Source: Anaerolineae bacterium (GTDB lineage: Bacteria; Chloroflexota; Anaerolineae; B4-G1; SLSP01). Taken from it: a DNA stretch of 33,127 bases. This document shows positions 5,551 through 20,833 of the stretch, piece by piece. The notes beneath the pieces are model-generated. The model ran no database searches, was not told where the DNA came from, and saw only the letters and a list, made by a program, of their open reading frames with translations. Both the position numbers and the translations under genes were made by a program. Where the stretch lies: NCBI GenBank assembly GCA_016926915.1, contig JAFGNR010000326.1, positions 1 through 33,127 of the forward strand, written 5' to 3'. Every line of letters starts with the position of its first letter. Position 1 is the first letter of the stretch.

Positions 5551-6591
5551 TTATTTCGCGGCGGGCCGGGATTTAGTCTTCGAACCAGGGGGCCAGAACG
5601 GCGGGCGTTCCATGCGCCACAAGGCATAGCCTCCGGCTGCTACGGTCAAGCCGCCAACGGTGTAGCTCTCCCAGACCCCGGCCTGGGTCACGAACAGGGC
5701 CGCCAATCCCAGCAGGAAAGCCACGATGTAGAGCACTAACACCGCCTCCCGCCGCGTAAGACCGGCATAGGTCAGGCGGTGCGAGGAGTGGTCGGTGCCG
5801 GGCGTCGTCAGGGGATTCAATCTGCGCCGTAAACGCGAGAGGGTGACGAGGGTCGTATCGAAAATGGGCACCCCAAGCACGAAGAGCGGAATCATCCAGG
5901 TGACGAAGGGGACGTTGTTCGGGAAACCGATCTTGATGCCAATCGCCGCCAGCATGAAGCCCAGGAAAAGGCTGCCCGAATCTCCCATGAAGATCGTGGC
6001 CGGGTTCCAATTGTAGATGAGGAAGCCAATACAGGCGGCGGCGACCGCGATCGACAGGGCGCCGACCAGATATTGGCCGGTAAAGGCGCACATCAGCGCG
6101 AAATGGGCCGCCGCGATGGCCGCGATGCCCCCGGAAAGGCCATCCATGTTATCCAGCAGGTTCAGGGCATTGGTAATCCCCACGACCCACAAGACGGTCG
6201 CCCCGTAATTCAACAGCGGAATGCGCAGGGTGGAAATCGAAACGCGGGTGAGCAACAGCAACCCGACGGCGATAAACTGTCCCCCCAGCTTGACCCAGGG
6301 ACTGAGCGTGAAACGATCATCCCAGAATCCCATGAACGAGACCAGGGAAGCGCCCAGCAGAATGCCAAAGAGCTGGTCGAGATTGTATTCCCGGCCGAGA
6401 AACAGGGTGACGATGAGAGTGCTCAAGAAGATCGCCACACCTCCCAAACGAGGCGTGGCGATCGTGTGTACTTTGCGAGAAGGGTCCGGCTGGTCAATGG
6501 CGTTGAGCCGCAGACCCAGCCGCCGCGCCAGCGGCGTTCCCACCACCGCCAGAAACAGCACGCCGGCGAACACCAGCAGGTACGTTGTCAT
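5551..6591 (-). CDS. Undecaprenyl-phosphate glycosyl-1-phosphate transferase (WecA/TagO/MraY family)
   Basis: This 346-residue polytopic membrane enzyme has the family motifs in order: WDD (Asp91-92), NALNLLDNMDGLSGG (141-155), FMGDSGSLFLG (Asp204), VPIFDT (Asp245) and HSSHRL (268-273). The last motif is typical of the WecA/TagO branch, not MraY. The enzyme transfers a sugar 1-phosphate, usually GlcNAc-1-P, from a UDP-sugar to undecaprenyl phosphate at the cytoplasmic face, starting polymer synthesis for the cell envelope. The exact sugar is not deducible. Its ATG overlaps the TGA of the upstream O-antigen-ligase-like gene by one base (TGATG), and AGGAG lies just upstream, so the two are translationally coupled. 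Both probably serve the same surface polysaccharide or protein-glycosylation pathway. Confidence 0.9.
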   Translation of the reverse strand: MTTYLLVFAGVLFLAVVGTPLARRLGLRLNAIDQPDPSRKVHTIATPRLGGVAIFLSTLIVTLFLGREYNLDQLFGILLGASLVSFMGFWDDRFTLSPWVKLGGQFIAVGLLLLTRVSISTLRIPLLNYGATVLWVVGITNALNLLDNMDGLSGGIAAIAAAHFALMCAFTGQYLVGALSIAVAAACIGFLIYNWNPATIFMGDSGSLFLGFMLAAIGIKIGFPNNVPFVTWMIPLFVLGVPIFDTTLVTLSRLRRRLNPLTTPGTDHSSHRLTYAGLTRREAVLVLYIVAFLLGLAALFVTQAGVWESYTVGGLTVAAGGYALWRMERPPFWPPGSKTKSRPAAK

Positions 6592-9500
6592 CAGGGCTCC
6601 TGTATGTCAGGGGTCTCGCCCTGGGGCTGAATCGCCGCAAGCAGCTGCTCGACCACCGCTTTCTGGCTCTCAGGGGCCAGCGTAAGGGCGGTCTGGGCCG
6701 TCTGCACAGCGGTCGCCTGCTGCCCCTCGTAATAGTAGGCAATGGCCAACATCCGGTAGATGTCCCAGAGTTCGCTCATGGTCGGGCAGTACCCAATCGT
6801 GGCTTCCAGATTTTCAATGGAATCGGTCCACAGGCTCTGTTGGGTCTGCAGAACGCCCAGCGCCCGGCGCACTGTGCAATCCTTCGGCTTGATCTCCAGG
6901 GATTGCTCGTAGGCCGCAATAGCGCCGGGAATATCCTGCTCCCGGTTTGCGCGGACATCCGCGATCAGGCTCCATGTCTGCTCGTATTCGGTATCCAGGG
7001 CCAGAGATTGGTCCACTGCCATCTGATAGTTTTCCATAGCATCCAAGTCAAAGGCATAGAGGATAGCCAACTCGTTCCAGAGAATCGGGTTATTGGGACT
7101 CAACACCAGCGCCATCAAGTAATTATCCTCAGCCAGGCCCAGCAAGGCGTTGCGGCTCCCCTCTCCGACGCGCGCGGCCCAGCTGCGATAGAAGCGGGCC
7201 AGGTTGGCGCTGTGGTCGGTGTTCAAAGGATTGATCTCGCGGGCCTCCAACAACACCGACTCGGTCGTGCGGAAAACCTCGGCCCGCTGCGTGTCGGTGA
7301 TCAGCTCGGAAGGCGTTTGGGCCAGTTCGAGATAGGCTTTGCCCAGGAAGAGGAAATAGTAGTCCTCACGCGGCGCCAGTTCAATAGCCCGCTCATAGTG
7401 CGCGATGCCGATTTGCCGCTGGGTAGCATCGGAGTTGTTGGCGAAGGCGCCTCCCTGCTTGTAGATGATGTCGGCGCGAATCAGATCATAGCAATAACGC
7501 CCGATAAGCGGCACGCTGAGTACCAGCAGCACCAGGAACACCACCCAGCTGGCCGTGTGCCCCCAGGACTTGGGTAAATCGGATTCCCACATCAGGATGA
7601 GACCGATAGCGATCAGACTGACGAAAATCAGGCCGTAATAACGCCCCAACACGTTGGCCAGGGTTTCGGCCACGGCTACGACGTCCTCCACGGTCTGAAC
7701 GGGGATTTGCGGCAAGAGCGCCTGCACCCCGGCCAGGATACCGGCAAAGATGAGGAAACCAAAGAAAGCAATCCCGACAAAGGTCAAGGCGATGTTCCAC
7801 CACTCCCGGGGGTCGCGAACCTCCAGCAGCCCCTCACGATGGTATTCGCTAAGGCCAATCACTCCAAAGATGGCTCCGGAAAAGACAACGATCACCAGCC
7901 CACCGGGAGAAGCAAGGTCCTTGGAGCTGATCACGGTCAGCGAGCGCCACATAATCGCGCCGGGATCCGTCGAACGGTTGGGATTGTTGATGAAATCATA
8001 GGCCAGCGTCCCCAGGAGGAACACCGCCATCAAGCTGAGCGCCACCACGGCCGGCCCCCAACTCTCACTCGCCGCGCGCGCCACGCGGCGGCGCGCGCTG
8101 CGCGACCGGTGGGCGTTCTGACCGGATTTCGCGGTGGGTTTGGACGTCCCATTTGCGGCTTCTGCCACCGGCGAGACCAACGCCGGCAACCATTCCAGGC
8201 CCAAAATCACGAGCAGGCCCACAAAGGCCCAGAACGTCGTTCGCGTGGCAGCAATCGCGATACCGAAGTTGATTTCCACAAAATGGCCCAGAATCGCCAT
8301 CAGCAACGCCGCCAGCAGCGTGCTATGGGAATGGAGCACGATTTCACCGGCGACAATCTGGCGGCCGCGCACCCGCAGGCGCAGGGCGTACCAGGTCATA
8401 TAAAGCGCCGTCCCCACCACGAAACCAATGGGAATGGCCACAGCAAAGAAATAAAAACGGCCGATGACGGCGAAGAAAATCGCCAGGCCCAGGGAAATCG
8501 CCGCGATAAGCCCAAAGTAGAGCCAGGCTTGCCCGCGCGTCGTCAACAGACCCAACCAGCGCAACCCCCAATAGAAGACCGCGCCAAACAATACCAGGTA
8601 GACGATCGCTCCCAAGGCCCCCGTAATCACAACCGCATCCAGAGTTTCGTTGTGCGACCGATCCGGAGAAGCCGTGCGAGATTCGTAGTGTCCCAGTTCA
8701 GGCGGATAGAAGCTATTGTAGGCCACGTACATCGACTCCGGCCCATAGCCCACGAGGGGACGAATGGCGTTGAAGGTGTCCTCAGAACCATCGGGGAAAG
8801 CGATCGGTTCATGAGGAGAGACCAGTTCCATGGCGCCTTCCCAGATCAGCGTGCGCACTTTGCCTGAACCGCTTTCCCACTGGAGAATGCGCGTCATACG
8901 GCTAATGGTCGGAACCTGCTGCGCCATGTCCTGGAGCGGCCCTGGAACGTTGATGACCAACAAGACGGCTGCTGCGGCCATCCCCACTACGGCCCATCCC
9001 ATCCATAACCAACGCCAGCCGATACGTTCCACGATGAAGTAAAGCCAGATGCCGCCGAAAGCTAATAGCGCCAGACCGCCCCCCAGGAGCGCGCCGAGAT
9101 TGCCGGGAATGAGTAAGATGAGGGGAGCCGCCAGCAAGCCGGCGCCGGCCAGAGAGCCCACACCCAGAGCGACGCCGTACAAAAGATCCAGGCCCCATTT
9201 CCCGGCGGCCTTGCTTTCCGCGGCAGCCTCCTCCCCCCGCGCTCTCTCATCCGCTGCGGCGGCTGCCGCCTGGCGCTGCAAAAGGATCAGAAGGAGATAG
9301 GGCAGCAGCAGGCCCGCAACGCCAATCCCCAGGAAAGGACCACGACTCTTCGAGTAAACCGTGGTCAAGATTTGCACGACGAAGATGAAAATATAGCCCG
9401 AGGCGCGCAGGATATCGGTTACCCGGGCCTTTTCGCGCCGCAGGATGTCGCCGAAGCTCTCGATGATCCGCGCAACGGTCAACGGCGCAATCATGATCAG

Positions 9501-10067
9501 GTAGGCGGCAACGAAGATGGCATTTCCCATATTCGATGCCACGCGGGTCTGCACGTCGCCGGCCCAGGGCAGAGGATCGAGACCCTCGTGCTGCACGATA
9601 CCGTAAAGCGCCACCGGCAGACTGTTCAGAATCAACACGGTGATCAAACGGCTGAGCTGCGCACGGGTCCGCAGGCTGGTCAGAATGGCGAAGAAGATGA
9701 CCAGATAGCCGAACCACGAATAGGTCCCCTGGAGACGTTGGTAGGAACCGACAAAACTTGTATAAGGCGTCAACGAGAGCAGGGACGTGATGACGTATAC
9801 CGCCATCGTCGCCAGGGCCGGCCACACCAGCGGCGTGCGCCACGAGAACCGCAGCGGTTCGGCAGAGCCATGCAGCCGCTCATCCAGGAATCGCACCAGC
9901 CACACTATTGCCATCACCGTCGCCAGAGCGCGCAAGGTGGTCAACTTGTCCGGTTCGAACACGCGGCTGGAATAAACGTTGAAGAAGACCGGTGTGATGG
10001 TGACGCCGATCAACCAACCGGCCTCCAATGCCCGCTCGCAGAAAAGACTTAATTTCGATGAACGCAT
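6591..10067 (-). CDS. Large O-antigen-ligase-like membrane protein with C-terminal TPR repeats
   Basis: The 1158-residue protein has an N-terminal half with many membrane segments and a Wzy_C/O-antigen-ligase-like layout. There are helices from residue 15 onward, a large loop after the segment ending in QQVPTISR (about 380-460), and further helices. Around residue 645 a basic stretch (SRSARRRVARAA) interrupts the membrane part, followed by more helices. The C-terminal 280 residues are soluble TPR-like helical repeats (HYERAIELAPREDYYFLFLGKAYLELA, AIAAYEQSLEIKPKD). Family members polymerise or ligate lipid-linked glycans, or transfer them to proteins, outside the membrane; TPR fusions are common among such proteins. 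The start has GAGGAG upstream. It leads a two-gene unit with the WecA-like enzyme. The exact reaction is uncertain. Confidence 0.8.
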   Translation of the reverse strand: MRSSKLSLFCERALEAGWLIGVTITPVFFNVYSSRVFEPDKLTTLRALATVMAIVWLVRFLDERLHGSAEPLRFSWRTPLVWPALATMAVYVITSLLSLTPYTSFVGSYQRLQGTYSWFGYLVIFFAILTSLRTRAQLSRLITVLILNSLPVALYGIVQHEGLDPLPWAGDVQTRVASNMGNAIFVAAYLIMIAPLTVARIIESFGDILRREKARVTDILRASGYIFIFVVQILTTVYSKSRGPFLGIGVAGLLLPYLLLILLQRQAAAAAADERARGEEAAAESKAAGKWGLDLLYGVALGVGSLAGAGLLAAPLILLIPGNLGALLGGGLALLAFGGIWLYFIVERIGWRWLWMGWAVVGMAAAAVLLVINVPGPLQDMAQQVPTISRMTRILQWESGSGKVRTLIWEGAMELVSPHEPIAFPDGSEDTFNAIRPLVGYGPESMYVAYNSFYPPELGHYESRTASPDRSHNETLDAVVITGALGAIVYLVLFGAVFYWGLRWLGLLTTRGQAWLYFGLIAAISLGLAIFFAVIGRFYFFAVAIPIGFVVGTALYMTWYALRLRVRGRQIVAGEIVLHSHSTLLAALLMAILGHFVEINFGIAIAATRTTFWAFVGLLVILGLEWLPALVSPVAEAANGTSKPTAKSGQNAHRSRSARRRVARAASESWGPAVVALSLMAVFLLGTLAYDFINNPNRSTDPGAIMWRSLTVISSKDLASPGGLVIVVFSGAIFGVIGLSEYHREGLLEVRDPREWWNIALTFVGIAFFGFLIFAGILAGVQALLPQIPVQTVEDVVAVAETLANVLGRYYGLIFVSLIAIGLILMWESDLPKSWGHTASWVVFLVLLVLSVPLIGRYCYDLIRADIIYKQGGAFANNSDATQRQIGIAHYERAIELAPREDYYFLFLGKAYLELAQTPSELITDTQRAEVFRTTESVLLEAREINPLNTDHSANLARFYRSWAARVGEGSRNALLGLAEDNYLMALVLSPNNPILWNELAILYAFDLDAMENYQMAVDQSLALDTEYEQTWSLIADVRANREQDIPGAIAAYEQSLEIKPKDCTVRRALGVLQTQQSLWTDSIENLEATIGYCPTMSELWDIYRMLAIAYYYEGQQATAVQTAQTALTLAPESQKAVVEQLLAAIQPQGETPDIQEP

Positions 10068-10308: not shown

Positions 10309-10392
10309 TCACCCACACACCAAACACCGCTTATAGTAACAACTACTCTTTACTGCGACGTGTTACCGTACAAATGTGCCGGAGGAATTGGG

Positions 10393-10650
10393 ATGCACGC
10401 CGGAATCTACCTGTTGTTGGCGATTATGATGGTCGCCAGCGCCATTGCCGCACTGTTCTCCAAAACCCTGACGCGCGCTGTCATCGCTCTGGGGGCGAGT
10501 AGCGCCAGTTTGGCCACGCTACTCTTCTTCCTCAAGGCCCCCTACGCCGGGGCCTTTGAGTTAAGTGTAGGGACCGGTCTCATCAGCGTCCTCCTTATCA
10601 TTGGACTGAGTTTGACGCGCACCTCACGGGAGTATGCCGATGCGGAGTGA
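10393..10650 (+). CDS. MbhD/DUF4040-like membrane subunit (N-terminal half of a NuoJ equivalent)
   Basis: This 85-residue protein has three hydrophobic helices. The last segment, AFELSVGTGLISVLLIIGLS, matches the DUF4040 pattern of hydrogenase and Mrp antiporter subunits (MbhD; part of MrpA), with an acidic residue at Glu56 in a membrane-facing position. In complex I the equivalent is the first part of NuoJ, beside the proton-relay axis. The ATG at 10393 is chosen because GGAGGA stands just upstream; an earlier in-frame ATG at 10360 has no ribosome binding site. It is the first gene of the operon and overlaps the next gene by 11 bp. Confidence 0.75.
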   Translation: MHAGIYLLLAIMMVASAIAALFSKTLTRAVIALGASSASLATLLFFLKAPYAGAFELSVGTGLISVLLIIGLSLTRTSREYADAE

Positions 10651-10906
10651 ACGATTGATTTGGGCAGGTCTCATTATCGCTGCCCTTTTTGTGGGGTGGC
10701 TGATAGGGCACGGCTTCAGCACTGACGAAGACACTGAGATGCCGCAACCCAGCAGTTTCCGCAGTTGGTTCTGGGAAGATCGCACACTGGATCTATTGGT
10801 GCAGGTTGGCTTGATCTTCGCGGGCGCATTGGGCGTCGCCGCGCTGCTGCCGGGACAAAGCGAACTGCACACCCAACACGAGGATCCGCATGTCCCCCTG
10901 GCTTGA
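10640..10906 (+). CDS. MbhE-like small membrane subunit
   Basis: The 88-residue protein has an N-terminal helix (about 7-23), a short polar acidic loop, and a second helix in the segment DRTLDLLVQVGLIFAGALGVAALL. That segment resembles the DTLgE...GvxaLL pattern of MbhE and the C-terminal MrpA region, although the usual acidic residue after L is replaced by Val. Together with the preceding protein it would correspond to a split NuoJ. The ATG at 10640 is preferred to the one at 10634, because GGGAG then lies 7 nt upstream. The short, poorly conserved sequence makes family assignment less certain than for its neighbours; an MbhF-like (MrpB) role is an alternative. Confidence 0.6.
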   Translation: MRSERLIWAGLIIAALFVGWLIGHGFSTDEDTEMPQPSSFRSWFWEDRTLDLLVQVGLIFAGALGVAALLPGQSELHTQHEDPHVPLA

Positions 10907-11201
10907 CATCGCCAACACCACGCTAAGCCTGATCCTCTTCATTACTGGCCTGTTGGGATTGCTGACACAGCGCCAGTTGATCAAGCAGGTGATCGGTCTC
11001 AAAGTCATGCTTCAAGGGGTAACATTGGGATTGATTCACGCGGGCCAGGTCAGCGGCAACCCGGATTTCGCCCAGTCTATGGTGGTCTCCGCGCTCATTG
11101 TAGAGGCGGTCTTGATCGCCGTAGCGCTGGCTTTGATTGTCAACATCTTCCGTCACTATCCCTCCGGGGATGTAGACGACCTACAAAGACTGGAGGGCTA
11201 G
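10890..11201 (+). CDS. NuoK/MrpC/MbhG-like membrane subunit
   Basis: This 103-residue protein has three transmembrane helices (about 8-25, 33-52, 62-87), the standard size and layout of NuoK, MrpC and MbhG. The buried acidic residue of the third helix is present (SALIVEAVLIAVALAL, Glu72). The second-helix motif reads GLKVMLQGVTL, with Lys38 where NuoK usually has a Glu. In complex I this subunit carries part of the charged axis that links the redox module to the antiporter-like subunits. The start overlaps the previous gene by 17 bp and has GAGGAT upstream. It is the third gene of the hydrogenase operon. Confidence 0.8.
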   Translation: MSPWLDIANTTLSLILFITGLLGLLTQRQLIKQVIGLKVMLQGVTLGLIHAGQVSGNPDFAQSMVVSALIVEAVLIAVALALIVNIFRHYPSGDVDDLQRLEG

Positions 11202-11207
11202 ACTGAT

Positions 11208-12650
11208 ATGGCACAGACTGCTTTGTTAGCCGGATTGCTGGGGCTGCCGGTAGCCGTAGCGATCTGGCTAGTTTTGACCGAACACGGCCCACCGGGCCAG
11301 GTCCGGTGGGTGGTGAGTTTGACGGCAGGTGCGACAGCAATATGCGCACTGAGCCTTCTTCCGTTTGCCGGACAAATCCCGCCTCCCACCCTGACGTGGT
11401 TGCCAACCGCCGGGGCCATGCGCCTGAGCCTGGCAACCACCAACCTTCTCGCAACAACGGCGACCGCAAGTGCGGCCGTCGTTGTTTATCTGGTAGGAGA
11501 CACTAAACAGGTCGAGTCTCCTGGCCCGCGAAGCGGCGCGCTGACGCTCCTGGCGCTGGCTGCGGGGAATCTGACCTTCCTCTCGGGGCATTTCCTTTTG
11601 CGGTACGTGGCGTTAGAAATTGTGGGATTATGCATTGCCCTTGCTCCCTTGCTCGAACGGCGAGGACCCGCTCCGTTTAGCCGTGCTGGCTGGGTTTATT
11701 TCTTGTTGCGTTTTGGCGACGCCGGGCTACTTGCTGCTATTCTGCTGACAGGGGCACAGAGCGGCGTCTATGAAATCCAGGGCGCATTGGAGGCCGTCCA
11801 TACCCTCTCCCCCCAGACCCAGACCTGGATCAGCCTGGGGTTCTTCCTGGCGGTCGCTGTCAAAGTAGGAATGTGGCCCTTCCATGCCTGGATCGACAGT
11901 GGGCGCCATCTATCCCGGAGTACGTACACCTGGCTCTACGCTACGCTCATGCCCAATCTGGGTCTCTACCTGCTCTACAAGGTGGCGGGGCTACCGCCCA
12001 CCGCGCCGCCGTTACGCAATGGCTTGCTCGTCTTCGGCGTGGGGGCGGGCGCGTTGCCCCTCCTCTCCATACTCATCCAACCGCTGAGCAGGAAGCGTCT
12101 GCCGGCGCGAAGCGCCGCCCTATTGGGCGCCATACTCTGGTGTCTGACTTTGCTAGGCAATGACAAATTGGCCTGGTGGGGTCTGCTGGCGCTGAGTGTT
12201 ATCCGCCTGCCGCTTTACCTCAGCCTATCCCATGAAGAAGAACCTACGGAGAACCGCCAGACCCTAACCCGGTGGGTAGGCTGGAATCAGAGGGGAGGCG
12301 CGCTCGTGCAACGACTCCATGCCGGCCTGGAATTGGGCATCCTCAAGCGGGGGCCAGAGGCGCTCGCCAGAGGTCTGGCCAAGATGGCCGAATTTCTTCA
12401 CACGAGGGTAGAGGTAAAGATTCTCGAACAGGGCGTGGATGCATCGGCTGCTAAGATCGTCGATTCAGCGAAATTGCTCCATGTGGCGGTGGAACAGCGA
12501 AGTCTAGAGGCGCTATTGCACATCGCCGTGAACAAGATCTTGCAGCTCAGCCACCGGCTACGCGATTGGCACACCGGCCGCCTGCGCGCCAATCTCCTGT
12601 GGGTGGTGCTCTGCCTGATTCTGGCGATTGGCCTGGCCCTTGCTTATTGA
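11208..12650 (+). CDS. NuoL-like antiporter subunit, shortened, with lateral helix
   Basis: The 480-residue membrane protein keeps the core antiporter segments LRYVALEIVGL (Glu137) and VAVKVGMWPFHAWID (Lys219), the Glu-Lys pair of Mrp/Nuo antiporter subunits. After about residue 345 an amphipathic helical region of about 110 residues ends in a last transmembrane helix (461-479). This matches the lateral arm that in NuoL runs along the other antiporter subunits. The protein is short for NuoL (usually over 600), and the HxxxKxLLFL motif of the second half is absent, although it is present in both downstream antiporter-like subunits. It may still pump ions or serve mainly as a structural arm. 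GGAGG lies about 10 nt upstream of the ATG. It would be the distal pump module of the hydrogenase complex. Confidence 0.8.
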   Translation: MAQTALLAGLLGLPVAVAIWLVLTEHGPPGQVRWVVSLTAGATAICALSLLPFAGQIPPPTLTWLPTAGAMRLSLATTNLLATTATASAAVVVYLVGDTKQVESPGPRSGALTLLALAAGNLTFLSGHFLLRYVALEIVGLCIALAPLLERRGPAPFSRAGWVYFLLRFGDAGLLAAILLTGAQSGVYEIQGALEAVHTLSPQTQTWISLGFFLAVAVKVGMWPFHAWIDSGRHLSRSTYTWLYATLMPNLGLYLLYKVAGLPPTAPPLRNGLLVFGVGAGALPLLSILIQPLSRKRLPARSAALLGAILWCLTLLGNDKLAWWGLLALSVIRLPLYLSLSHEEEPTENRQTLTRWVGWNQRGGALVQRLHAGLELGILKRGPEALARGLAKMAEFLHTRVEVKILEQGVDASAAKIVDSAKLLHVAVEQRSLEALLHIAVNKILQLSHRLRDWHTGRLRANLLWVVLCLILAIGLALAY

Positions 12651-12713
12651 TGCCGGGAGGAAAGAGGCGTCGCTGTCTTATCTATGGACAACTAAACACA
12701 AAGGAGACTATCT

Positions 12714-14186
12714 ATGACCAGGGACATAGTCTTTCTCGAGCTTATTTTGGGGTTCCCTTTAGCGACCGCGCTGATTCTGGCGTTGTTGCGCGGGCGTGGA
12801 TCGCGGTCCGCCGGGTGGATTGCCGGTGGCAGCGCTCTCGTAACGCTGGGTTCGGCCTTTGCCCTCCTGCCGGCGCTCTACGGCGGCAGCGAACCTGCCG
12901 TGGCCTTTTCCTGGATCCCGGCGGCGAATATCCAGCTGCGCCTGCACGTGGATTGGCTGACGCTCCCCTTTTTGGTGACGGAAGCGGCGGTCACGTTGGC
13001 CGCCATTGTCTACAGCTGGGGCTACCACAAAGTTGACGCGCGCAGCGGCTATTTCTACGCGCTCTTGTTGCTCTTCGGCGTGGGTATGTCCGGCACCACA
13101 CTGGCAGATGATCTTTTCCTCTTCTACATCTTTTGGGAGTTGATGCTCATCGCCTCCTGTGTGCTCATCCTGATCTGGGGTGAGGGGGAACGACGCGGCA
13201 TCGTAGCGCTCAAATACTTCATCTTCACGCACATAGGCTCCCTGATGGTGCTGGTGGGGTTGCTGATGCTCTACGGAGCGACAGGAAGCGACAGTCTCGC
13301 GATGATGCGCGCCGGAGGCTGGTCCCTGGAACCAGCGTTGCTGAACACCGTGTTGCTCCTCTTCTTCATCGGTTTTTCCGTTAAGATGGCCATCTTCCCC
13401 GTGCACCTCTGGCTACCCGACACACACACGGTCGCCCCCATGCCCGTCACCATTATGCTGGCTGCGGCTATGTTAAGCATGGGAACCTACGGTATACTGC
13501 GCTTCCCTTTCAGCCTCTTCAGCATCGAGCACATCGCGCCCTTCGCCCTGCCCCTGATGATCGCCGGGCTGGTATCGGAAATCTACGGAGCGCTGATGGC
13601 CCTGGCCGAGCAAGATATCAAGCGCATTATCGCCTACTCCAGCGTGAGCCAGATGGGATACATCCTCTTTGGCCTGGGAACATTGACGCGCGCGGGAATC
13701 GAGGGCGCAACGCTGCACGTCATCTACCATGCCATCGTCAAGGCGCTGCTCTTCATGGTCACAGGATTGGTCATTCGCGCTACGGGTACGCGCAAGATCG
13801 AGGCGCTCGGCGGGTTAGGCAAGGCGTTGCCCGGCGTAGCGGTCTGTACCGCCATCGGCGCGCTGGGTATCGCTGGCATGCCCCCGCTAGGCATATTCAA
13901 CAGCGAATGGATGATCTTTGCCGGCGGTTTCGAGACCGCGCGCATCGTTCCATCGATGCTTACCCTCTTCGGATCCTTGCTTACTGTTGTCTACGCGCTG
14001 CGCTTCTTTGGCCGTATCTTCTTTGGGGAGCAGCCTCAGAACCTCAAGATACGCTCCCTACCCCGTGCGATGCTATACACTACCGTGGCAATAACCGTGC
14101 TACTCATCGTCGAAGGACTCTTCCCTGCGCCGCTTTTCGACTGGGTAGCCCAAGAGTTAACGCTGCTCCTGGGGGGCGGGCTTTGA
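12714..14186 (+). CDS. NuoM/MrpD-like antiporter subunit
   Basis: This 490-residue protein has about 14 helices. Conserved features are YIFWELMLIASC (Glu142), FSVKMAIFPVHLWLPDTHTVAP (Lys224, the broken-helix region) and HAIVKALLFMVTG (His339, Lys343). All are typical of complete NuoM/MrpD/MbhH pump subunits, so both half-channels look intact. It would translocate H+ or Na+ across the cytoplasmic membrane, driven by the hydrogenase module; which ion cannot be told. AAGGAG stands ahead of the ATG. Its stop overlaps the start of the next antiporter-like gene as TGATG, indicating coupled translation of the two pump subunits. Confidence 0.9.
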   Translation: MTRDIVFLELILGFPLATALILALLRGRGSRSAGWIAGGSALVTLGSAFALLPALYGGSEPAVAFSWIPAANIQLRLHVDWLTLPFLVTEAAVTLAAIVYSWGYHKVDARSGYFYALLLLFGVGMSGTTLADDLFLFYIFWELMLIASCVLILIWGEGERRGIVALKYFIFTHIGSLMVLVGLLMLYGATGSDSLAMMRAGGWSLEPALLNTVLLLFFIGFSVKMAIFPVHLWLPDTHTVAPMPVTIMLAAAMLSMGTYGILRFPFSLFSIEHIAPFALPLMIAGLVSEIYGALMALAEQDIKRIIAYSSVSQMGYILFGLGTLTRAGIEGATLHVIYHAIVKALLFMVTGLVIRATGTRKIEALGGLGKALPGVAVCTAIGALGIAGMPPLGIFNSEWMIFAGGFETARIVPSMLTLFGSLLTVVYALRFFGRIFFGEQPQNLKIRSLPRAMLYTTVAITVLLIVEGLFPAPLFDWVAQELTLLLGGGL

Positions 14187-15655
14187 TGGCTGAGAGTACC
14201 TGGGTCATCCTCCCCCTGCTCTGGTTGTTTGGTGGGGCCTTTGCCCTGGGACTTCTCGGACGGTTGGGGCGTATGCGCAACACATTCCTGGCGGGCGCGA
14301 CCGCCTTGATTTGCACGGGCGGCCTGCTGTGGCTGATCCCCCTCTTCGCCCTGACCCAATCGGCATGGGTGAATCAAACTGCCCTTCCCAGCTGGTCCGG
14401 CACGGCTTCCGGCGGTATCCAGCTGCGGGCGACCCCCAGCGCCCTGGTAATGACCGCCCTCGCATTGGGGCTGGGGCTACTCATCGCCATCTATTCAGGG
14501 CAATACTTAGCGCGGGATCGTCGCTACGCGACCGCGTACCCCCTGTTGCTCCTGATGTTGACCGGGCTCCTGGGCATGCTGTTGACCACCGACCTCTTCA
14601 ATCTTTACCTCTTCTGCGAACTGCTGAGCATCGCCGCCTACGTACTGGTAGCCTTCCGCCGTCACACCGACACCTCCATTGAAGCAGGTTTCAAATACCT
14701 CATAATGAGCAGTGTCGCCACGCTCATCATGCTGTTAGGAATCTCCTGGATTTACCGGGAGGTGGGCAACGTGACCCTGCCAATTATAGAAGGGCAAGAT
14801 AGCCTATGGCTTCGCCTGGGGATCGCTTGTTTCCTGGTAGGGCTGGCCCTCAAGAGTGGCGTGGCGCCGTTGCATACCTGGTTACCCGACGCCTACGGGC
14901 GTGCTCCTAGCAGTGTCAGCGCGCTGCTGGCCAGTGTTATCTCCAAAAGCACCCTGCTCGTCTTGCTCAGAGTTACGTTGGGGCTAGGCTTGCCGGCGCC
15001 CATACTCGGAATAGTATTCATCTTCTTCTCCTTCTTGAACATGACCCTGGGCAACGCCCTGGCGTTGATACAACGCAACATCAAACGGCTCCTGGCTTAC
15101 TCCTCCATCGCCCAAACTGGCTACATTCTGTTCGCTTTAGGGATAGGATTGCGTTATGACATACCAGCGGCGCTCAACGCCGGCTTCTTCCTGCTCTTGG
15201 TTCACGCTTTGCTCAAAGCATTGGCCTTCTTGAGCAAGGGCGTTTGCCACTTCTACTGCGGCGCGACACAGGTGAAGGATCTACAAGGGACGGCGCATCA
15301 GTTCCCCCTGGTAGCCCTTACCTTCAGCGTCTCCCTGGCGGGGTTAGCTGGGATCCCGCCGCTGGCGGGGTTCGCGGCCAAATGGTTTATCCTGGCCGCA
15401 AGTCTGACAGCGCAAGATACGTTGGCTTACGTGGGCGTGGCGATCTTTCTACTGAACAGCGTCTTGGCCCTGGGCTATTACCTCCCGCTTATCGTACAGA
15501 TCTTCACCCCGCCGCCAATCGGGGACACCGCGCGCCAGCGCGTTTCGCTGTGGATAAGCATCCCGCTAATACTGCTGGGGGCGCTGACACTGTCCGCCGG
15601 TTTGCAATCCACACCCTGGCTGGACATTGCAACCTGGCTGAACTTTTTTGAGTAG
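14186..15655 (+). CDS. NuoN/MrpD-like antiporter subunit
   Basis: The 489-residue polytopic protein is the third antiporter-like subunit of the operon. FNLYLFCELLSIAAYVL carries the conserved Glu, LALKSGVAPLHTWLPDAYG the conserved Lys and broken helix, and HALLKALAFLSKG the second-half Lys. These point to a complete pump unit related to NuoN/NuoM and MrpD. The ATG at 14186 is taken as the start because it overlaps the preceding TGA (TGATG) and gives the normal family N-terminus; the reading frame is open back to 13907, but that part lies inside the NuoM-like gene. The gene is followed after 24 bp by the NuoA-like gene. Confidence 0.88.
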   Translation: MAESTWVILPLLWLFGGAFALGLLGRLGRMRNTFLAGATALICTGGLLWLIPLFALTQSAWVNQTALPSWSGTASGGIQLRATPSALVMTALALGLGLLIAIYSGQYLARDRRYATAYPLLLLMLTGLLGMLLTTDLFNLYLFCELLSIAAYVLVAFRRHTDTSIEAGFKYLIMSSVATLIMLLGISWIYREVGNVTLPIIEGQDSLWLRLGIACFLVGLALKSGVAPLHTWLPDAYGRAPSSVSALLASVISKSTLLVLLRVTLGLGLPAPILGIVFIFFSFLNMTLGNALALIQRNIKRLLAYSSIAQTGYILFALGIGLRYDIPAALNAGFFLLLVHALLKALAFLSKGVCHFYCGATQVKDLQGTAHQFPLVALTFSVSLAGLAGIPPLAGFAAKWFILAASLTAQDTLAYVGVAIFLLNSVLALGYYLPLIVQIFTPPPIGDTARQRVSLWISIPLILLGALTLSAGLQSTPWLDIATWLNFFE

Positions 15656-15679
15656 AAACAGAATATCGAGGAGCAAGAT

Positions 15680-16018
15680 ATGATACAACAAATCCTATTA
15701 AGTCCTCCGGGAGCCTTTGTGTTTTTCCTGACGTTGACCTATGGCATATACAGATTAGGCGGGAGCATTGCTGCGCCGGGCGAACCACATGAGGACAAGC
15801 ATCTCTCCTATACCGGGGGGGAAAAGGTGCCGCCGCCGACAACCGGCCAACTCTCCTACCACGCCTTCTTCCGACTGGCATTACTCTTCGCTATCTTGCA
15901 CGTGGCAACGCTGGTGCTCGCCATGCTACCCAGAGACGTCGTCTCTCATCGAGTCGCATCACTCTATACCATAGGCATTGCCATTAGCGCCCTCGTGTTA
16001 GCAAAGGAAGAAGCCTAA
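15680..16018 (+). CDS. NuoA-like membrane subunit
   Basis: This 112-residue protein has a first helix (about 10-26), then a polar loop with LSYTGGEKVPPP, then two helices (about 65-82 and 91-106). The layout is that of NuoA/ND3, where the loop between helices 1 and 2 contacts the quinone or redox site. In NuoA the second helix carries acidic residues in an FDVE-like motif; here the aligned segment reads FAILHVATL, with His and no acid. Position between the antiporter genes and the NuoB-like gene supports the assignment. GAGGAG precedes the ATG. The gene ends 1 bp before the NuoB-like start. An MbhI-like assignment is the alternative. Confidence 0.7.
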   Translation: MIQQILLSPPGAFVFFLTLTYGIYRLGGSIAAPGEPHEDKHLSYTGGEKVPPPTTGQLSYHAFFRLALLFAILHVATLVLAMLPRDVVSHRVASLYTIGIAISALVLAKEEA

Positions 16019-16019
16019 G

Positions 16020-16463
16020 ATGCAGCAATGGCTTACTAAACAGGTTCATAACATCGTGAGTTGGGCGCGCCGCAAATCCCCCTGGATTCTGCACTTCAAC
16101 AGCGGGGGTTGCAACGGTTGTGATATCGAGATACTCGATCTCCTGACACCCCGCTATGACGTGGAACGCCTGGGTATCCTCAAGGAGGCATCGCCGCGCC
16201 ACGCCGATATACTCATCTGTACCGGCCCGGTGACACGCCAATCACGGGATCGCCTGCGGCAAATTTATGAGCAGATACCCGAACCCAAATGGGTGGTGGC
16301 CGTAGGGAGCTGTAGTTGCTCTGGCGGCGTTTTTCAGGGGGGGCACAACATCTTGGGTGGTGTAGAAAACGTGCTGCCCGTCGATATCTACATCCCCGGA
16401 TGTCCTTGCCGCCCTGAGGCCATCATTGACGGACTCGCCCAGTTACTGGAGACTATCACATGA
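16020..16463 (+). CDS. NuoB-like small subunit of [NiFe] hydrogenase
   Basis: The 147-residue cytoplasmic-side protein has the proximal [4Fe-4S] cluster ligands of group 4 hydrogenase small subunits. These are Cys31 and Cys34 in GGCNGCDIE, Cys98 in AVGSC, and Cys128 in IPGCP. Spacing CxGC, rather than the CC pair of true complex I NuoB, favours a hydrogenase. Two further Cys lie next to canonical ones, at 100 (SCSC) and 130 (GCPC, where Pro is usual). It passes electrons between the [NiFe] centre of the NuoD-like subunit and the ferredoxin-like NuoI subunit. It overlaps the next gene by 4 bp (ATGA). Confidence 0.9.
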   Translation: MQQWLTKQVHNIVSWARRKSPWILHFNSGGCNGCDIEILDLLTPRYDVERLGILKEASPRHADILICTGPVTRQSRDRLRQIYEQIPEPKWVVAVGSCSCSGGVFQGGHNILGGVENVLPVDIYIPGCPCRPEAIIDGLAQLLETIT

Positions 16464-16909
16464 GCAATGTGAAATTCAACCTAGAAGCATTACTAGCCGC
16501 GTGGCAAAGGGCCTTTCCTAAGCTCAAGTTGACAATGGAAACGCTGCCTCTGGACGAAGTCGTTGTGGCCTTTCCACCTGAGTATCTCGTCCCGGCAGTC
16601 TGCGTTCTCACAGAGCAATTCAACGTGAGACACCTTTCCACTATCACCGGCGACGACACAGGCGAGGGGATTGCGTTACTCTATCATTTCTGGAGCGGAT
16701 CAGGTCTCACCTTACGCACGCGCCTGCCCTACGATGCGCTGCACATCCCCTCGCTTACCGGGATAATTCCGGGCGCCGTGTTCTACGAGCGCGAGGCGGC
16801 GGAGATGCTGGGCGTTATCTTCGAAGGTCATCCCGCCCCCCAACCGTTGCTCATGCCGGATGACTGGGAGGGCGAGCACCCCTTACGCGCTTCTGCAGAA
16901 GATAGATGA
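16460..16909 (+). CDS. NuoC-like (30 kDa) hydrogenase subunit
   Basis: This 149-residue soluble protein resembles the NuoC/HycE-N 30-kDa domain. A beta-rich N-terminal half (LKLTMETLPLDEVVVAFPPEYLVP) is followed by the family segment VFYEREAAEMLGVIFEGHPAPQPLLMPDDWEG, close to the signature of complex I NuoC (ERE-DMFGI-FxGHPDLRRLL). The aligned basic residues of the HPDLRR segment are replaced by Pro and Gln. It is a separate protein here, whereas in E. coli hydrogenases 3 and 4 it is fused to the large subunit. The ATGA overlap with the NuoB-like gene suggests stoichiometric synthesis. It should sit on the cytoplasmic arm next to the large subunit. Confidence 0.85.
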   Translation: MSNVKFNLEALLAAWQRAFPKLKLTMETLPLDEVVVAFPPEYLVPAVCVLTEQFNVRHLSTITGDDTGEGIALLYHFWSGSGLTLRTRLPYDALHIPSLTGIIPGAVFYEREAAEMLGVIFEGHPAPQPLLMPDDWEGEHPLRASAEDR

Positions 16910-17006
16910 ACTATTGCGCGCTACCTGATATATCGACAGCACAGAATACCGGTCCTTGCTGCCAGAAGAGCCGATGAACCATGAATCATATAGACAAGGG
17001 AGAAAC

Positions 17007-18089
17007 ATGAATCGAATAACGGTGCCCATTGGCCCGCAACACCCGCTGCTCAAGGAACCCATGGCTTTCCAGCTAACGGTGGAGGGGGAAAGCGTCATCG
17101 AAAGCACCCTGCGCCTGGGCTACGTGCATCGCGGCATTGAGCGGCTCTGTCAGGAACGCACTTACGTGCAAAATATCCACCTTGTTGAGCGTGTGTGCGG
17201 TATCTGTTCGCATGTCCACACGACGACCTATTGCCAAGGCGTCGAAGCGTTGTTGGGCTTGGAAGTTCCGCTGCGCGGTCTATATCTACGTACCCTGCTC
17301 TGTGAATTGGAACGAATACATAGCCATCTACTCTGGCTCGGCGTGCTGGCGCGTAACATCGGCTTTGACACCATTTTCATGTATGCCTGGCGCGATCGTG
17401 AGATCGTTCTGGACATCATGGAAGATCTCTCAGGCGGGCGGGTCTCCCACGCGGTCAATGTCATTGGCGGTGTCCGCATCGATCTGACAGAAGAACACCG
17501 TGACACGATCCTGTCCCAGCTGGATCTATTGGACAAGCAGGTTGCCCACCTATTGGGCATTGTGGAACACGAGCGATCCTTGAAAGCACGCACCCAGAAT
17601 ATCGGGCATCTATCCTTAGAAGATGTGCGCCGTTACTGCGTCGTGGGGCCGGTAGCACGGGCTTCCGGATTGAACGTAGACCTACGCCGCGACCGACCGC
17701 CGCCCCCCTATGACCGGCTTACTTTCACAGTGCCTGTCCATGAAGATGGAGACGTATGGGCACGCACCTGGGTGCGTATGCGAGAGACAGTCGAAAGCGT
17801 GCGTCTCTGTCGCCAGATCTTGACCCTATTACCCGATGGCCCAGTCGCTGCACGCGCCCGTCGTCGTGTGCCTGCTGGCGAAGTCATCAGCCGCTCCGAG
17901 GCGCCCCGGGGTGAAGTCATCTACTACATCCGTAGCGACGGCAGCGATATACCCGCCCGTGTCAAAATCCGCACCCCCACGCTGACCAGTCTGATCACGC
18001 TGCCCACACAACTTGAAGGAGTCAATATGGCCGATGTCTCCGTGGTGCTTGCCGGCGTCGATCTCTGTATTGCCTGCGCGGACCGATGA
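17007..18089 (+). CDS. NuoD-like large subunit of group 4 [NiFe] hydrogenase
   Basis: The 360-residue protein begins with the NuoD/HycE signature VPIGPQHP and contains both Cys pairs that bind nickel and iron. The N-terminal pair is RVCGICSHVH (Cys64, Cys67, with His71). The C-terminal pair is DLCIACADR (Cys354, Cys357), where the usual Pro after Asp is Leu. Complex I NuoD lacks these Cys, so a hydrogen-reacting active site is expected. The protein ends directly at the Arg after the second pair, so there is no C-terminal extension for a maturation endopeptidase to remove. The ATG at 17007, with AGGGAG upstream, is preferred over 16956, which would add a non-conserved tail. A 97-bp gap separates it from the NuoC-like gene; I see no promoter there. 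Confidence 0.92.
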   Translation: MNRITVPIGPQHPLLKEPMAFQLTVEGESVIESTLRLGYVHRGIERLCQERTYVQNIHLVERVCGICSHVHTTTYCQGVEALLGLEVPLRGLYLRTLLCELERIHSHLLWLGVLARNIGFDTIFMYAWRDREIVLDIMEDLSGGRVSHAVNVIGGVRIDLTEEHRDTILSQLDLLDKQVAHLLGIVEHERSLKARTQNIGHLSLEDVRRYCVVGPVARASGLNVDLRRDRPPPPYDRLTFTVPVHEDGDVWARTWVRMRETVESVRLCRQILTLLPDGPVAARARRRVPAGEVISRSEAPRGEVIYYIRSDGSDIPARVKIRTPTLTSLITLPTQLEGVNMADVSVVLAGVDLCIACADR

Positions 18090-18153
18090 GTACTACGAAT
18101 GAATCAAACTGAACACACGCTGACTATGGCAAGCCAAACCATCAGGAGTTCCT

Positions 18154-19074
18154 ATGGCGCTAATTAACCTGTTGTTCTTTCCCGGCTTTACCTTTCTCTT
18201 CATGTGCGCGCTCTTCTTCGAGTGGCTGGACCGGCGCATCATCGCCCGCTTTCAAGAGCGTGTGGGACCACCCTGGTTCCAGCCGCTGGCCGACTTCATC
18301 AAACTGCTGGCTAAGGAGGATATCGTGCCGAGCGGCGCGCACGCCAAAGCGGCGGCCCTACTCCCCATGTTTTCCCTGACCGCTGTACTGACGGCGGGAC
18401 TCTACGTGCCGGTCGGCAACGTAGTCACAGCTTCCTTTGAGGGCGATCTCATCGTCGTGCTGTTCCTGCTCAGTTTACCCGCGTTGGGCTACTTCCTGGC
18501 GGGATGGACTTCGGTAGGCGTTTACAGTCTGATCGGTGGACATCGCTCGCTGTTGCAATATTTCTCCTACGAGGTGCCTTTCCTAATGGCGGTGGCTAGT
18601 CCGGCGATCCTCAGCGGGTCCTGGCGCATCGCGTCTATCGCCGCATACCAATCCCAGACAACGTGGGGAGCGTTGATGCAACCCTTGGGATTCATCCTGG
18701 CTATCATCGGACTCATCGGCAAGCTCAAACGCGATCCCCTGGACATCCCCAAGGCCAAGTCCGAAGTCGTCGCCGGGTCGCTAACTGATTTCAGCGGACG
18801 GAAGATCGCGCTCTGGCACCTCAGCATTTACATCCAAACCGTGGTCGGCATATTTTTGCTGGTCAATCTTTTCCTGGGGGGAAGCAGTCACCAGAGTTTG
18901 TTCGTCGCATTGCCGATCTTCGGATTGAAGGCGCTGGGAATCTTGATCCTTCTTTCCATGATTAGCGTGCTCTATGCCCGGTTACGCATTGATCAGTTGG
19001 CCAACCTCGGCTGGCGTGTGCTGGCCCCGCTAGCGCTCATACAATTACTGGTCACGATCTGGAGTGGAGGATAA
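18154..19074 (+). CDS. NuoH-like membrane anchor subunit
   Basis: This 306-residue protein with about eight helices matches NuoH/HycD/MbhM. Conserved segments are EWLDRRIIARFQERVGPPWFQPLADFIKLLAKEDIVP (about 23-60), GHRSLLQYFSYEVPF (loop near 130-144), and KLKRDPLDIPKAKSEVVAG, the charged loop that contacts the redox module. In complex I this subunit forms the quinone tunnel; in group 4 hydrogenases it joins the peripheral hydrogenase to the pump arm. AGGAG lies upstream of the ATG. It follows the large-subunit gene after 64 bp and precedes the ferredoxin-like subunit by 3 bp. Confidence 0.92.
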   Translation: MALINLLFFPGFTFLFMCALFFEWLDRRIIARFQERVGPPWFQPLADFIKLLAKEDIVPSGAHAKAAALLPMFSLTAVLTAGLYVPVGNVVTASFEGDLIVVLFLLSLPALGYFLAGWTSVGVYSLIGGHRSLLQYFSYEVPFLMAVASPAILSGSWRIASIAAYQSQTTWGALMQPLGFILAIIGLIGKLKRDPLDIPKAKSEVVAGSLTDFSGRKIALWHLSIYIQTVVGIFLLVNLFLGGSSHQSLFVALPIFGLKALGILILLSMISVLYARLRIDQLANLGWRVLAPLALIQLLVTIWSGG

Positions 19075-19077
19075 CGT

Positions 19078-19458
19078 ATGAGATGCCTTGAATCGATTGC
19101 CTACCTCTTCCCCCGCATTTGGAGGACATTGGCGCGTGGCCCGCAGACGGTAGCCTACCCCCTCAGCCCGATCGATCTGCCCGCAGGCTACCGGGGGCGG
19201 GTACACATCCGCGCGGAGCTATGTCGAGGCTGCGGTCTCTGCGTGCGCGACTGCCCCGCTTTCGGGCTGGAACTGGAACGAGAGGACCGCGAAACCTTTC
19301 GCCTAATCTACCACCCTGATCGCTGCGCCTATTGTGGGCAATGCGAGGAAAGTTGTAACTTCGGAGCAATCTATCTCGACAATGACTTCGTGCACGGCAC
19401 TTTTAATCGCGAAGCATTGATCGAGGTATTGGTGGATCGGAAAAGAACCAACAAATAG
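19078..19458 (+). CDS. NuoI-like ferredoxin subunit with two [4Fe-4S] clusters
   Basis: The 126-residue protein carries two classic cluster motifs: CRGCGLCVRDCPA (Cys49, 52, 55, 59) and CAYCGQCEESCNF (Cys83, 86, 89, 93). The second lacks the final Pro. It is the last gene of the operon and would pass electrons between a soluble partner, probably ferredoxin, and the NuoB-like subunit. There is no NAD-binding module in the operon, which supports ferredoxin over NADH. The gene converges with the glycerate kinase gene, leaving only 25 bp; an imperfect hairpin near 19472-19497 overlaps the kinase 3' end, but I see no convincing terminator. Confidence 0.92.
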   Translation: MRCLESIAYLFPRIWRTLARGPQTVAYPLSPIDLPAGYRGRVHIRAELCRGCGLCVRDCPAFGLELEREDRETFRLIYHPDRCAYCGQCEESCNFGAIYLDNDFVHGTFNREALIEVLVDRKRTNK

Positions 19459-19483: not shown

Positions 19484-20833
19484 TTAAAGCGTGGCATCTG
19501 GAGCAACGAGGATGACCAAAAGGTCGTTCACGTTGGTGCCGGTGGGGCCGGTCACCAGAAGATCTCCGGTAGCAGTCAGAAAGGGATAGGTATCATTGTC
19601 GTCCAACGAAGCATAGGGATCCAATCCCAGAGAGCGCGCCCGCGAGAGCGTCGCGCCGTCAACAACAGCGCCAGCAGCATCGGTGGGGCCATCGGTGCCG
19701 TCGGTGGCCAGCGCCATAATTGCAACGCCCGCCAGCCCGTCGATGCCCAAGGCAGCCGCGACTGCCAATTCCTGATTACGCCCGCCCCGCCCCCGCCCCC
19801 GCACCGTGACGGTCGTCTCACCGCCCCAGACGAGACAGGCCGGCGGGGATAGGGGATCGCCGTGTACTCGAAGGCTGCGAGCCAGCGCAGCTGCTACCCG
19901 CCCCACTTCCCGCGCCTTTCCCTCGACGAAAGTTGAAAGCAGCAGCGAGGCGTAGCCCAAACGTTCAGCTTCGGCGACGGCGGCGCGCGCCGCCAGCCGG
20001 TTGGACCCGATCACAATGTTGTGTACAGTTCGGAACAGAGGATCGCCGGGTTTGGGAGTCTCCGCAATGGCGCCGGCTACACCGCGCACCAGGCGCAGAC
20101 GCACCGCCGGCGGCGCCTGCTCCACGAGGCTGTATCGTTCCAGGATGGCCCAGGCTTCGGCGAAGGTCGAAGGGTCGGGCGCCGTGGGACCGGACGCAAT
20201 CACATCCAGGAGATCGCCCACCACGTCTGAAAGCACCAGGACAATCATCTGCGCGGGCGCGGATAACGCCGCCAGCTGCCCGCCCTTGATCCCCGACAGG
20301 TGCTTGCGGATGGTGTTGAGTTCGCCAATTGAAGCGCCCGCGCGCAACAGCGCGAGCGTCGCGGCCTGCAGATCATCCAACGAAAGGCCCTCCACAGGAT
20401 AGGGCAAGAGCGCCGAAGCCCCGCCCGAAAGCAAGACAAGAACCAGGTCCTGGGGTGTGGTCGTTTCGAGAAGACGCACTACGGCGGCGGCGCCTTGCAG
20501 GCCGGCGGCGTCAGGCGCCGGATGCCCCGCTTCGAATACCTCCAGGCGCGCCGGTAGGGAATACCCGGCGGTGTGGCCGTATTTGGTGATCACGACGCCA
20601 GACGTCAACGCCGGACCTAGAAGCGCCGCCGCTTCGGCAGCCATAGGGACAGCAGCTTTTCCCGCAGCCACGAGCAGCCGGCGACCTCCGGTAGCAATCG
20701 GCCAGGCCTCGTGGGAAACGCGCAGAACGCCGCTATCGCAACTGAGAACCCGCCGGACAGCCTGACCGGGATCCACCGCCCGCAAAGCCGCGTCACGAAT
20801 CAATGCCAGATCGGCGCGCAGATCCATAGCCAT
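19484..20833 (-). CDS. Glycerate 2-kinase (DUF4147/MOFRL family)
   Basis: This 449-residue protein matches the GckA/TtuD-type glycerate kinase. The N-terminal DUF4147 domain has AAGKAA (57-62), TKYGHTAG (83-90), EAGHPAPDAAG (101-111) and VLLSGGASALLP (133-144). The C-terminal MOFRL domain contains WGGETTVTVRGRGRGGRNQEL and LATDGTDGPTDAAGA. The enzyme phosphorylates D-glycerate to 2-phosphoglycerate in the cytoplasm, feeding glycolysis from hydroxypyruvate, glyoxylate or sugar-acid breakdown. The start at 20833 follows the upstream stop by 2 bp; an ATG two codons later is also possible, and neither has a strong binding site, which suggests coupled translation. It is last in a leftward unit with a sugar-binding lipoprotein and a glycosidase-like protein, fitting carbohydrate use. 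Confidence 0.9.
   Translation of the reverse strand: MAMDLRADLALIRDAALRAVDPGQAVRRVLSCDSGVLRVSHEAWPIATGGRRLLVAAGKAAVPMAAEAAALLGPALTSGVVITKYGHTAGYSLPARLEVFEAGHPAPDAAGLQGAAAVVRLLETTTPQDLVLVLLSGGASALLPYPVEGLSLDDLQAATLALLRAGASIGELNTIRKHLSGIKGGQLAALSAPAQMIVLVLSDVVGDLLDVIASGPTAPDPSTFAEAWAILERYSLVEQAPPAVRLRLVRGVAGAIAETPKPGDPLFRTVHNIVIGSNRLAARAAVAEAERLGYASLLLSTFVEGKAREVGRVAAALARSLRVHGDPLSPPACLVWGGETTVTVRGRGRGGRNQELAVAAALGIDGLAGVAIMALATDGTDGPTDAAGAVVDGATLSRARSLGLDPYASLDDNDTYPFLTATGDLLVTGPTGTNVNDLLVILVAPDATL

Follow-up and report, generated by a model that had tools for sequence, protein, structure and literature searches.

A probable bacterial Hfo-like group 4g [NiFe] hydrogenase cluster in Anaerolineae with a half-degenerate distal antiporter subunit

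Analysis of the window, the whole stretch of 33,127 nucleotides examined here (contig C265 of an Anaerolineae genome bin that was 88.7% complete), revealed a real and well-conserved hydrogenase gene cluster that belongs to an Anaerolineae clade and has an overall design already known from archaea. The cluster probably encodes a bacterial Hfo-like [NiFe] hydrogenase of group 4g that would pump ions while evolving H2 from reduced ferredoxin, with the distal subunit L acting mainly as a clamp. The half-degenerate distal antiporter is apparently the new point, since no description of it was found in the literature searched, a search that most subscription papers fell outside.

Organization of the gene cluster

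The cluster consisted of twelve contiguous or overlapping open reading frames, all on the + strand between positions 10393 and 19458, in the order J1-J2-K-L-M-N-A-B-C-D-H-I.

J1, 10393..10650, +, N-terminal half of NuoJ, MbhD-like; PF13244 30.3 bits (cut-off 27.2), PF00499 29.5 bits; part of a fused J in related clusters
J2, 10634..10906, +, C-terminal half of NuoJ, MbhE-like; position and sequence conserved in the clade, matching the C-terminal half of the fused J
K, 10890..11201, +, NuoK/MrpC-like; PF00420 64.8 bits
L, 11208..12650, +, degenerate NuoL-like distal antiporter; PF00361 positions 1-153 of 294, residue table, AlphaFold2 model, structural match to NuoL
M, 12714..14186, +, NuoM-like antiporter with E142, K224 and E398 intact; PF00361 234 bits, TIGR01972 340 bits, residue map, tree
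N, 14186..15655, +, NuoN-like antiporter with E145, K223, K254 and K399 intact; PF00361 203 bits, residue map, tree
A, 15680..16018, +, NuoA-like connecting subunit; the family profile finds true NuoA
B, 16020..16463, +, hydrogenase-type small subunit, proximal 4Fe-4S cluster motif CxxC (GGCNGCD); PF01058 115.7 bits
C, 16460..16909, +, NuoC-like connecting subunit; PF00329 92.6 bits
D, 17007..18089, +, [NiFe] large subunit with L1 CGICSHVH and L2 DLCIACADR; PF00346 227.7 bits, PF00374 44.6 bits
H, 18154..19074, +, NuoH-like membrane anchor of the catalytic arm; PF00146 251.8 bits
I, 19078..19458, +, NuoI-like, two 4Fe-4S motifs, likely site of ferredoxin docking; Fer4 families, CRGCGLCVRDCP and CAYCGQCEESC

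Matches in Pfam and NCBIfam supported K, L, M, N, B, C, D, H and I, and these matches together with the reading frames upheld the first-pass annotation of a twelve-gene complex-I-like [NiFe] hydrogenase without NuoEFG. J1, for which an alternative earlier GTG start was possible at 10360, scored above the cut-off of the MbhD family (PF13244) and just below that of the NuoJ family; J1 and J2 together corresponded to the single J gene of related clusters. J2 and A had no match in Pfam, and the profile of the A family recovered genuine NuoA genes from E. coli and from the complex I of Chloroflexota and archaea. All 11 core subunits of Fpo/Nuo were present, with J as two genes, and the EFG and FO modules were absent. 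C (149 aa) and D (360 aa) were separate genes, not the C-D fusion of the Hyf type. This separation had been thought to make the layout distinctive; however, the same traits and the rotated Nuo-like order recurred in other loci, and the synteny check proposed at that stage found the same gene order in more than 20 other genomes. No genes of an Mrp-type sodium module were found between J1 and I, and the flanking genes were unrelated: an O-antigen-ligase-like TPR protein upstream (6591-10067, - strand) and a glycerate-kinase type gene (DUF4147/MOFRL) downstream (19484-20833, - strand).

Catalytic module and assignment to group 4g

The large subunit retained the four cysteines of the [NiFe] site, as claimed from the first inspection, and the motifs CGIC and DxCxxC were kept in all clade homologues examined. 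Group 4g is defined by the L1 motif C[GS][ILV]C[AGNS]xxH and the L2 motif [DE][PL]Cx[AGST]Cx[DE][RL] (PMC7886697), and D agreed with both (CGICSHVH and DLCIACADR). Residue E18 of D, the equivalent of E21 of MbhL, was invariant in the clade, and the best match of D in the PDB was MbhL (6cfw_L, 248 bits). At the positions of H38 and Y87, which contact the quinone headgroup in Nqo4, D carried K17 and G66 in the alignment to 7q5y_B.

In the tree of D the cluster joined the 4g set and did not fall within complex I, although D alone did not settle the deep order. The trees of B, D, H and I grouped the cluster with 4g at 95/92 and 98/98 and separated complex I at 100/100; in the catalytic-module tree complex I joined next to the 4g set. 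Comparison of the catalytic subunits with Nuo had been recommended as a check, and it placed the cluster outside a complex I that was monophyletic at 100/100. The cysteines, the quinone-site residues and the trees led to the rejection of a true complex I. The D homologues of 590 residues in sister genomes were considered as a Hyf-like hydrogenase and rejected, as they were devoid of the cysteines and resembled NuoCD fusions.

The 4g label was given by proxy, through the clade shared with Candidatus Fermentithermobacillus carboniphilus (L148), for which a group 4g hydrogenase cluster was reported (PMC10215811). The complete genome of this organism contained exactly one PF00346 protein, located within an identically ordered cluster, and the label of the window cluster rests on this. 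On its motifs and tree placement, the cluster falls in HydDB group 4g and is not a new class. In HydDB the members of 4g cluster only loosely, and ferredoxin-dependent H2 formation with ion transport is putative for the group as a whole (PMC5037454); no member of the group has been biochemically characterised (PMC7886697).

D of the window clade ended at the L2 motif with no cleavable C-terminal extension, so a maturation endopeptidase should be unneeded. The Ech-type homologues of D also terminated at L2, and an extension was present in the D of Fermentithermobacillus.

Half-degenerate L subunit

The first-pass annotation had counted three antiporter-like subunits. Two of these stood, as the key residues of M and N listed above were intact, but L aligned to just the first 153 of the 294 positions in the Proton_antipo_M model (PF00361), and its second half-channel was lost. 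Against solved structures L scored about 25 bits, compared with about 208 bits for M. The full NuoL-type residue set (E144, K229, H254, H334, H338, K342, and K399) was not found in L. In 26 clade loci, which are loci and not independent events since a few represent the same organism reached by different routes or close relatives, the TM5 acid (E144) was kept in 25 of the 25 aligned, and D178 and K229 were kept in all 26, whereas H254, H334 and H338 were kept in none. The position of K342 held Arg in 24 loci, and the equivalent of K399 was Lys in a single locus, possibly misaligned. In contrast, nearly all of the key residues were kept in the reference NuoL-type subunits (14 full-length sequences from complex I and sister hydrogenases). 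L was also shortened in many clade members. A frameshift or assembly error was rejected as the cause, because the same residues were lost in 26 loci.

The AlphaFold2 model of L, built from 22 sequences (pLDDT 79.6), contained about 11 membrane helices, after which came a long helix (about 70 residues) and an anchor helix at the end of the chain. Its best structural matches were NuoL chains, with Z values up to 37.6 and an alignment reaching the lateral helix of NuoL; the model was weak past residue 340 (pLDDT about 45-67), so a lateral helix in L is only suggested. As judged from these residues, L keeps the first (cytoplasmic) half-channel and has lost the second (periplasmic) half-channel.

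The M gene was missing from the cluster in four genomes (G009, G012, G019, and G037), where L and N were operon neighbours, and the rest of these bins, which are incomplete, yielded no close M. A link between the length of L and the presence of M was considered and was not clean, as one of the genomes without M had an L of 634 residues.

Antiporter trees and kinship with complex I

For the antiporter trees, complex I of bacteria and archaea was sampled together with Mbh, Mbs, Mrp, Ech and the two types of 4g cluster. The window clade was represented by M and N only, because its L was too degenerate to include; the result for L therefore rests on the related clusters, and the set was sampled without the Hfo sequences of Bathyarchaeia. 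The hydrogenase L, M and N each paired with its namesake in complex I, with joint support of 100/98 for L, 100/99 for M and 99/98 for N. Sampled complex I was monophyletic in each of the three, and the hydrogenase subunits were located outside it. A single origin of NuoL, NuoM and NuoN that excluded the other antiporters was rejected by the AU test (p = 2e-6). The alternative tested for L was also rejected (p = 0.005), and for N a grouping with Mbh/Mbs instead of NuoN was not (p = 0.065). These sequence trees support the hydrogenase L-M-N set as the sister of L, M and N of sampled complex I, with N weak by the AU test. The likeliest reading of the trees is that the L-M-N arm was already present together with a Ni-Fe catalytic head.

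The antiporters of the Omnitrophota type failed to pair with L, M and N of complex I, and their catalytic module fell in the same 4g clade. This mismatch between antiporter and catalytic genes indicates that modules were exchanged somewhere. In the Omnitrophota-type 4g clusters (L132, L136, L141, L143, L157, and others), the three antiporter genes were located upstream of J-K.

Comparison with known systems

The closest described design is Hfo, an 11-subunit Fpo-like [NiFe] hydrogenase of group 4g from Bathyarchaeia that was published in 2021 and argued to connect more closely to complex I than Mbh does (PMC7886697). The cluster of the window shared with Hfo the 11 subunit types, the absence of an EFG or FO module, a 4g large subunit with both Ni-Fe motifs, and the proposed position between hydrogenases and complex I. 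It differed in being bacterial, in the split J and in the half-degenerate L. Hfo is said to share the Nuo/Fpo order ABCD-HI-JKLMN, whereas the window order JKLMN-ABCD-HI is a rotation of it, and for this reason the enzyme was named Hfo-like and not Hfo. The layout had initially been read as a possible intermediate between hydrogenases and complex I. As a discovery this did not hold, as the cluster falls in 4g, the same layout occurs in Fermentithermobacillus and its relatives, and Hfo was already published. The intermediate reading itself gained real support from the pairing of L, M and N with complex I, but the Hfo paper made the same argument, so this central evolutionary idea was not new.

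The 4g cluster of Fermentithermobacillus (CP062796.1, PMC10215811) had the order J-K-L-M-N-A-B-C-D-H-I and a D that was 49% identical to that of the window, but its J was unsplit, its L was full length with all key residues, its D was extended at the C-terminus, and hypD and a gene for a hycI-type protease lay next to the cluster. Hydrogenase 4 (Hyf) of E. coli also has three antiporter-like subunits and a [NiFe] site; unlike the window cluster, it has a C-D fusion, a different order and no separate NuoA or NuoJ gene. The membrane arm subunits corresponded one to one to those of complex I (Nuo), which is without the Ni-Fe cysteines, possesses a quinone site and in most cases includes EFG. Mbh of Pyrococcus furiosus (group 4d) is likewise a ferredoxin-type [NiFe] enzyme with a split J, and the order of its remaining genes is similar. 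However, a single antiporter subunit is present in Mbh, together with a sodium module, whereas the window cluster had a complex-I-like antiporter set and no sodium module. MBS of P. furiosus, a member of the same superfamily with antiporter-like subunits and a lateral helix, differs in having two antiporter-like subunits, in the loss of two of the four cysteines and in reducing polysulfide (PMC7684303).

Host genome, maturation genes and electron donor

The genome of the window had a single PF00346 locus. This had suggested that the organism had no complex I, an idea refuted by contig C178 (L243:1-7499), on which the genes of a canonical membrane arm of complex I (H-J-K-L-M-N) ran into the contig end. 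The organism therefore possesses complex I as well as the hydrogenase, although a second NuoD was not detected in the 88.7% complete bin. Among the relatives bearing the cluster, hypD was found in 9 of the 10 tested (absent in G045). It was undetected in the 88.7% complete bin of the window, which contained HypF as a gene cut by a contig end. In two Bacillota relatives, hypD and a hycI-type protease gene adjoined the cluster, and one of these also had a hypE-like gene; such neighbours point to a matured hydrogenase. Genes of the PFOR type were present in all 10 genomes tested. The neighbouring genes were considered as electron-donor modules, and none was identified as such in the window or in the flanks of these Bacillota relatives. 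Ferredoxin, proposed as the partner from the start, is the likeliest donor.

Proposed mechanism and alternative explanations

Gene content, motifs, tree placement and residue losses were observed directly; from these we infer activity, donor, direction, ion and stoichiometry by analogy with Mbh, MBS and complex I (PMC7684303, PMC10212512). Reduced ferredoxin produced by the PFOR-type enzymes of this genome would dock at I, and the electrons would travel via both clusters of I and then the proximal one of B to the Ni-Fe site of D, which would reduce protons to H2. The energy released would be passed via the H/A/J/K interface into the membrane arm, with N and M as the putative ion-moving units. 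L, the counterpart of NuoL, keeps its cytoplasmic half-channel and apparently the long C-terminal (lateral-type) helix with its anchor; having lost the residues of the periplasmic half-channel, it would serve mainly as a clamp, and fewer ions would be moved per H2 than in a complex with three pumps.

The degenerate L may still pump via other residues, which would make three pumps; K229, D178 and the TM5 acid were conserved, so L is under selection, and a near-invariant Arg replaced K342. This is nevertheless unlikely, because the equivalents of H254, H334, H338 and K399 were lost in essentially all members and L was shortened in many. It is quite unlikely that the same hydrogenase runs mainly in reverse, using the ion gradient and H2 to reduce ferredoxin. 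Group 4 enzymes are reversible and Hfo of Bathyarchaeia was interpreted in this way (PMC7886697), but the several PFOR-type genes suggest that reduced ferredoxin is plentiful.

Two further alternatives concern the relation to complex I. A hybrid in which an Mbh/Ech-type hydrogenase captured its membrane arm from an early complex I, and which would not be an ancestral relic, is somewhat unlikely. Modules do move, as the Omnitrophota-type 4g clusters combine the shared catalytic module with other antiporters and another gene order; however, the hydrogenase L, M and N each fell outside sampled complex I, and the catalytic tree also placed complex I next to the 4g set. A variant complex I, in which ferredoxin electrons reduce quinone and the cysteines are relics, would account for the same 11 subunits, the NuoA- and NuoJ-like parts and the antiporters that pair with complex I. 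It is very improbable, given that the four Ni-Fe cysteines and E18 were conserved throughout the clade, B carried CxxC in place of the tandem Cys found in NuoB, K17 and G66 stood at the sites of the His and Tyr that bind quinone, D was located outside complex I in the trees, and the organism also has the canonical arm on C178. An Hfo-like, H2-evolving hydrogenase with L mainly as a clamp is the reading preferred here.

Implications for coupling in complex I

Tentatively, these genes may represent a monophyletic hydrogenase family with an arm sister to that of complex I, in which the distal unit is without its periplasmic half-channel and M is lost in four genomes, giving a series of three, two and one intact units. 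If this is true and the enzyme still pumps, protons must have an exit other than NuoL, contrary to one leading model of complex I, and the coupling stoichiometry would be set by the number of intact units. In that "domino" model all protons leave complex I via NuoL, using the TM8 His and a TM12 residue (PMC10212512). Since both were lost from L and M and N were intact, a pumping measurement would be a direct test of the model: a pumping enzyme with a degenerate L would contradict it or show that M takes over the exit. The half-lost channel would thus be a natural experiment on the working of such pumps. At standard state, the passage of two electrons from ferredoxin to H2 releases about 12 kJ/mol, compared with 81 for complex I (PMC7684303), and the residue loss in L fits these energetics because H2 formation yields too little for a full set of pumps. 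The complex-I-like members of 4g are candidates for the nearest kin of complex I among living hydrogenases, and the antiporter trees add subunit-level support for this to the earlier large-subunit tree and synteny.

Distribution and gene-order types

The same cluster was found in relatives of the same family and order (D identity 68-82%) and of the same class (63-64%). In a scan of about 85,000 species genomes, the window clade comprised Anaerolineae/Chloroflexota bins at 55-82% identity, and wider relatives at 48-53% identity occurred in Bacillota, Omnitrophota, Elusimicrobiota, Acidobacteriota, Verrucomicrobiota, archaea, and others. A contig labelled Marinimicrobia (L124, LGGY01000169.1) carried a window-clade cluster with a D of 63% identity, which is probably a binning error, or a transfer. 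Two main gene-order types were observed among the relatives. The order J-K-L-M-N-A-B-C-D-H-I was found in the window clade, in Bacillota and in one Euryarchaeota bin, with some Anaerolineae having only two of the three antiporter genes; in Omnitrophota and others, three successive antiporter genes were followed by J-K-A-B-C-D-H-I. In one relative (L068:6187-8253) a gene for a membrane H+-pyrophosphatase directly adjoined the hydrogenase cluster. In the genome JAQUAF01 (Verrucomicrobiia STC_78), two closely related large subunits of group 4g were encoded on separate contigs (L141 and L142), the second in surroundings without a recognisable membrane cluster. In archaeal bins of Thermoplasmatota (L225-L227), the [NiFe] clusters consisted of a split J, K and one Mbh-like antiporter, followed by B-C-D, and in L227 a second D homologue without the Ni-Fe cysteines was present on the same contig.
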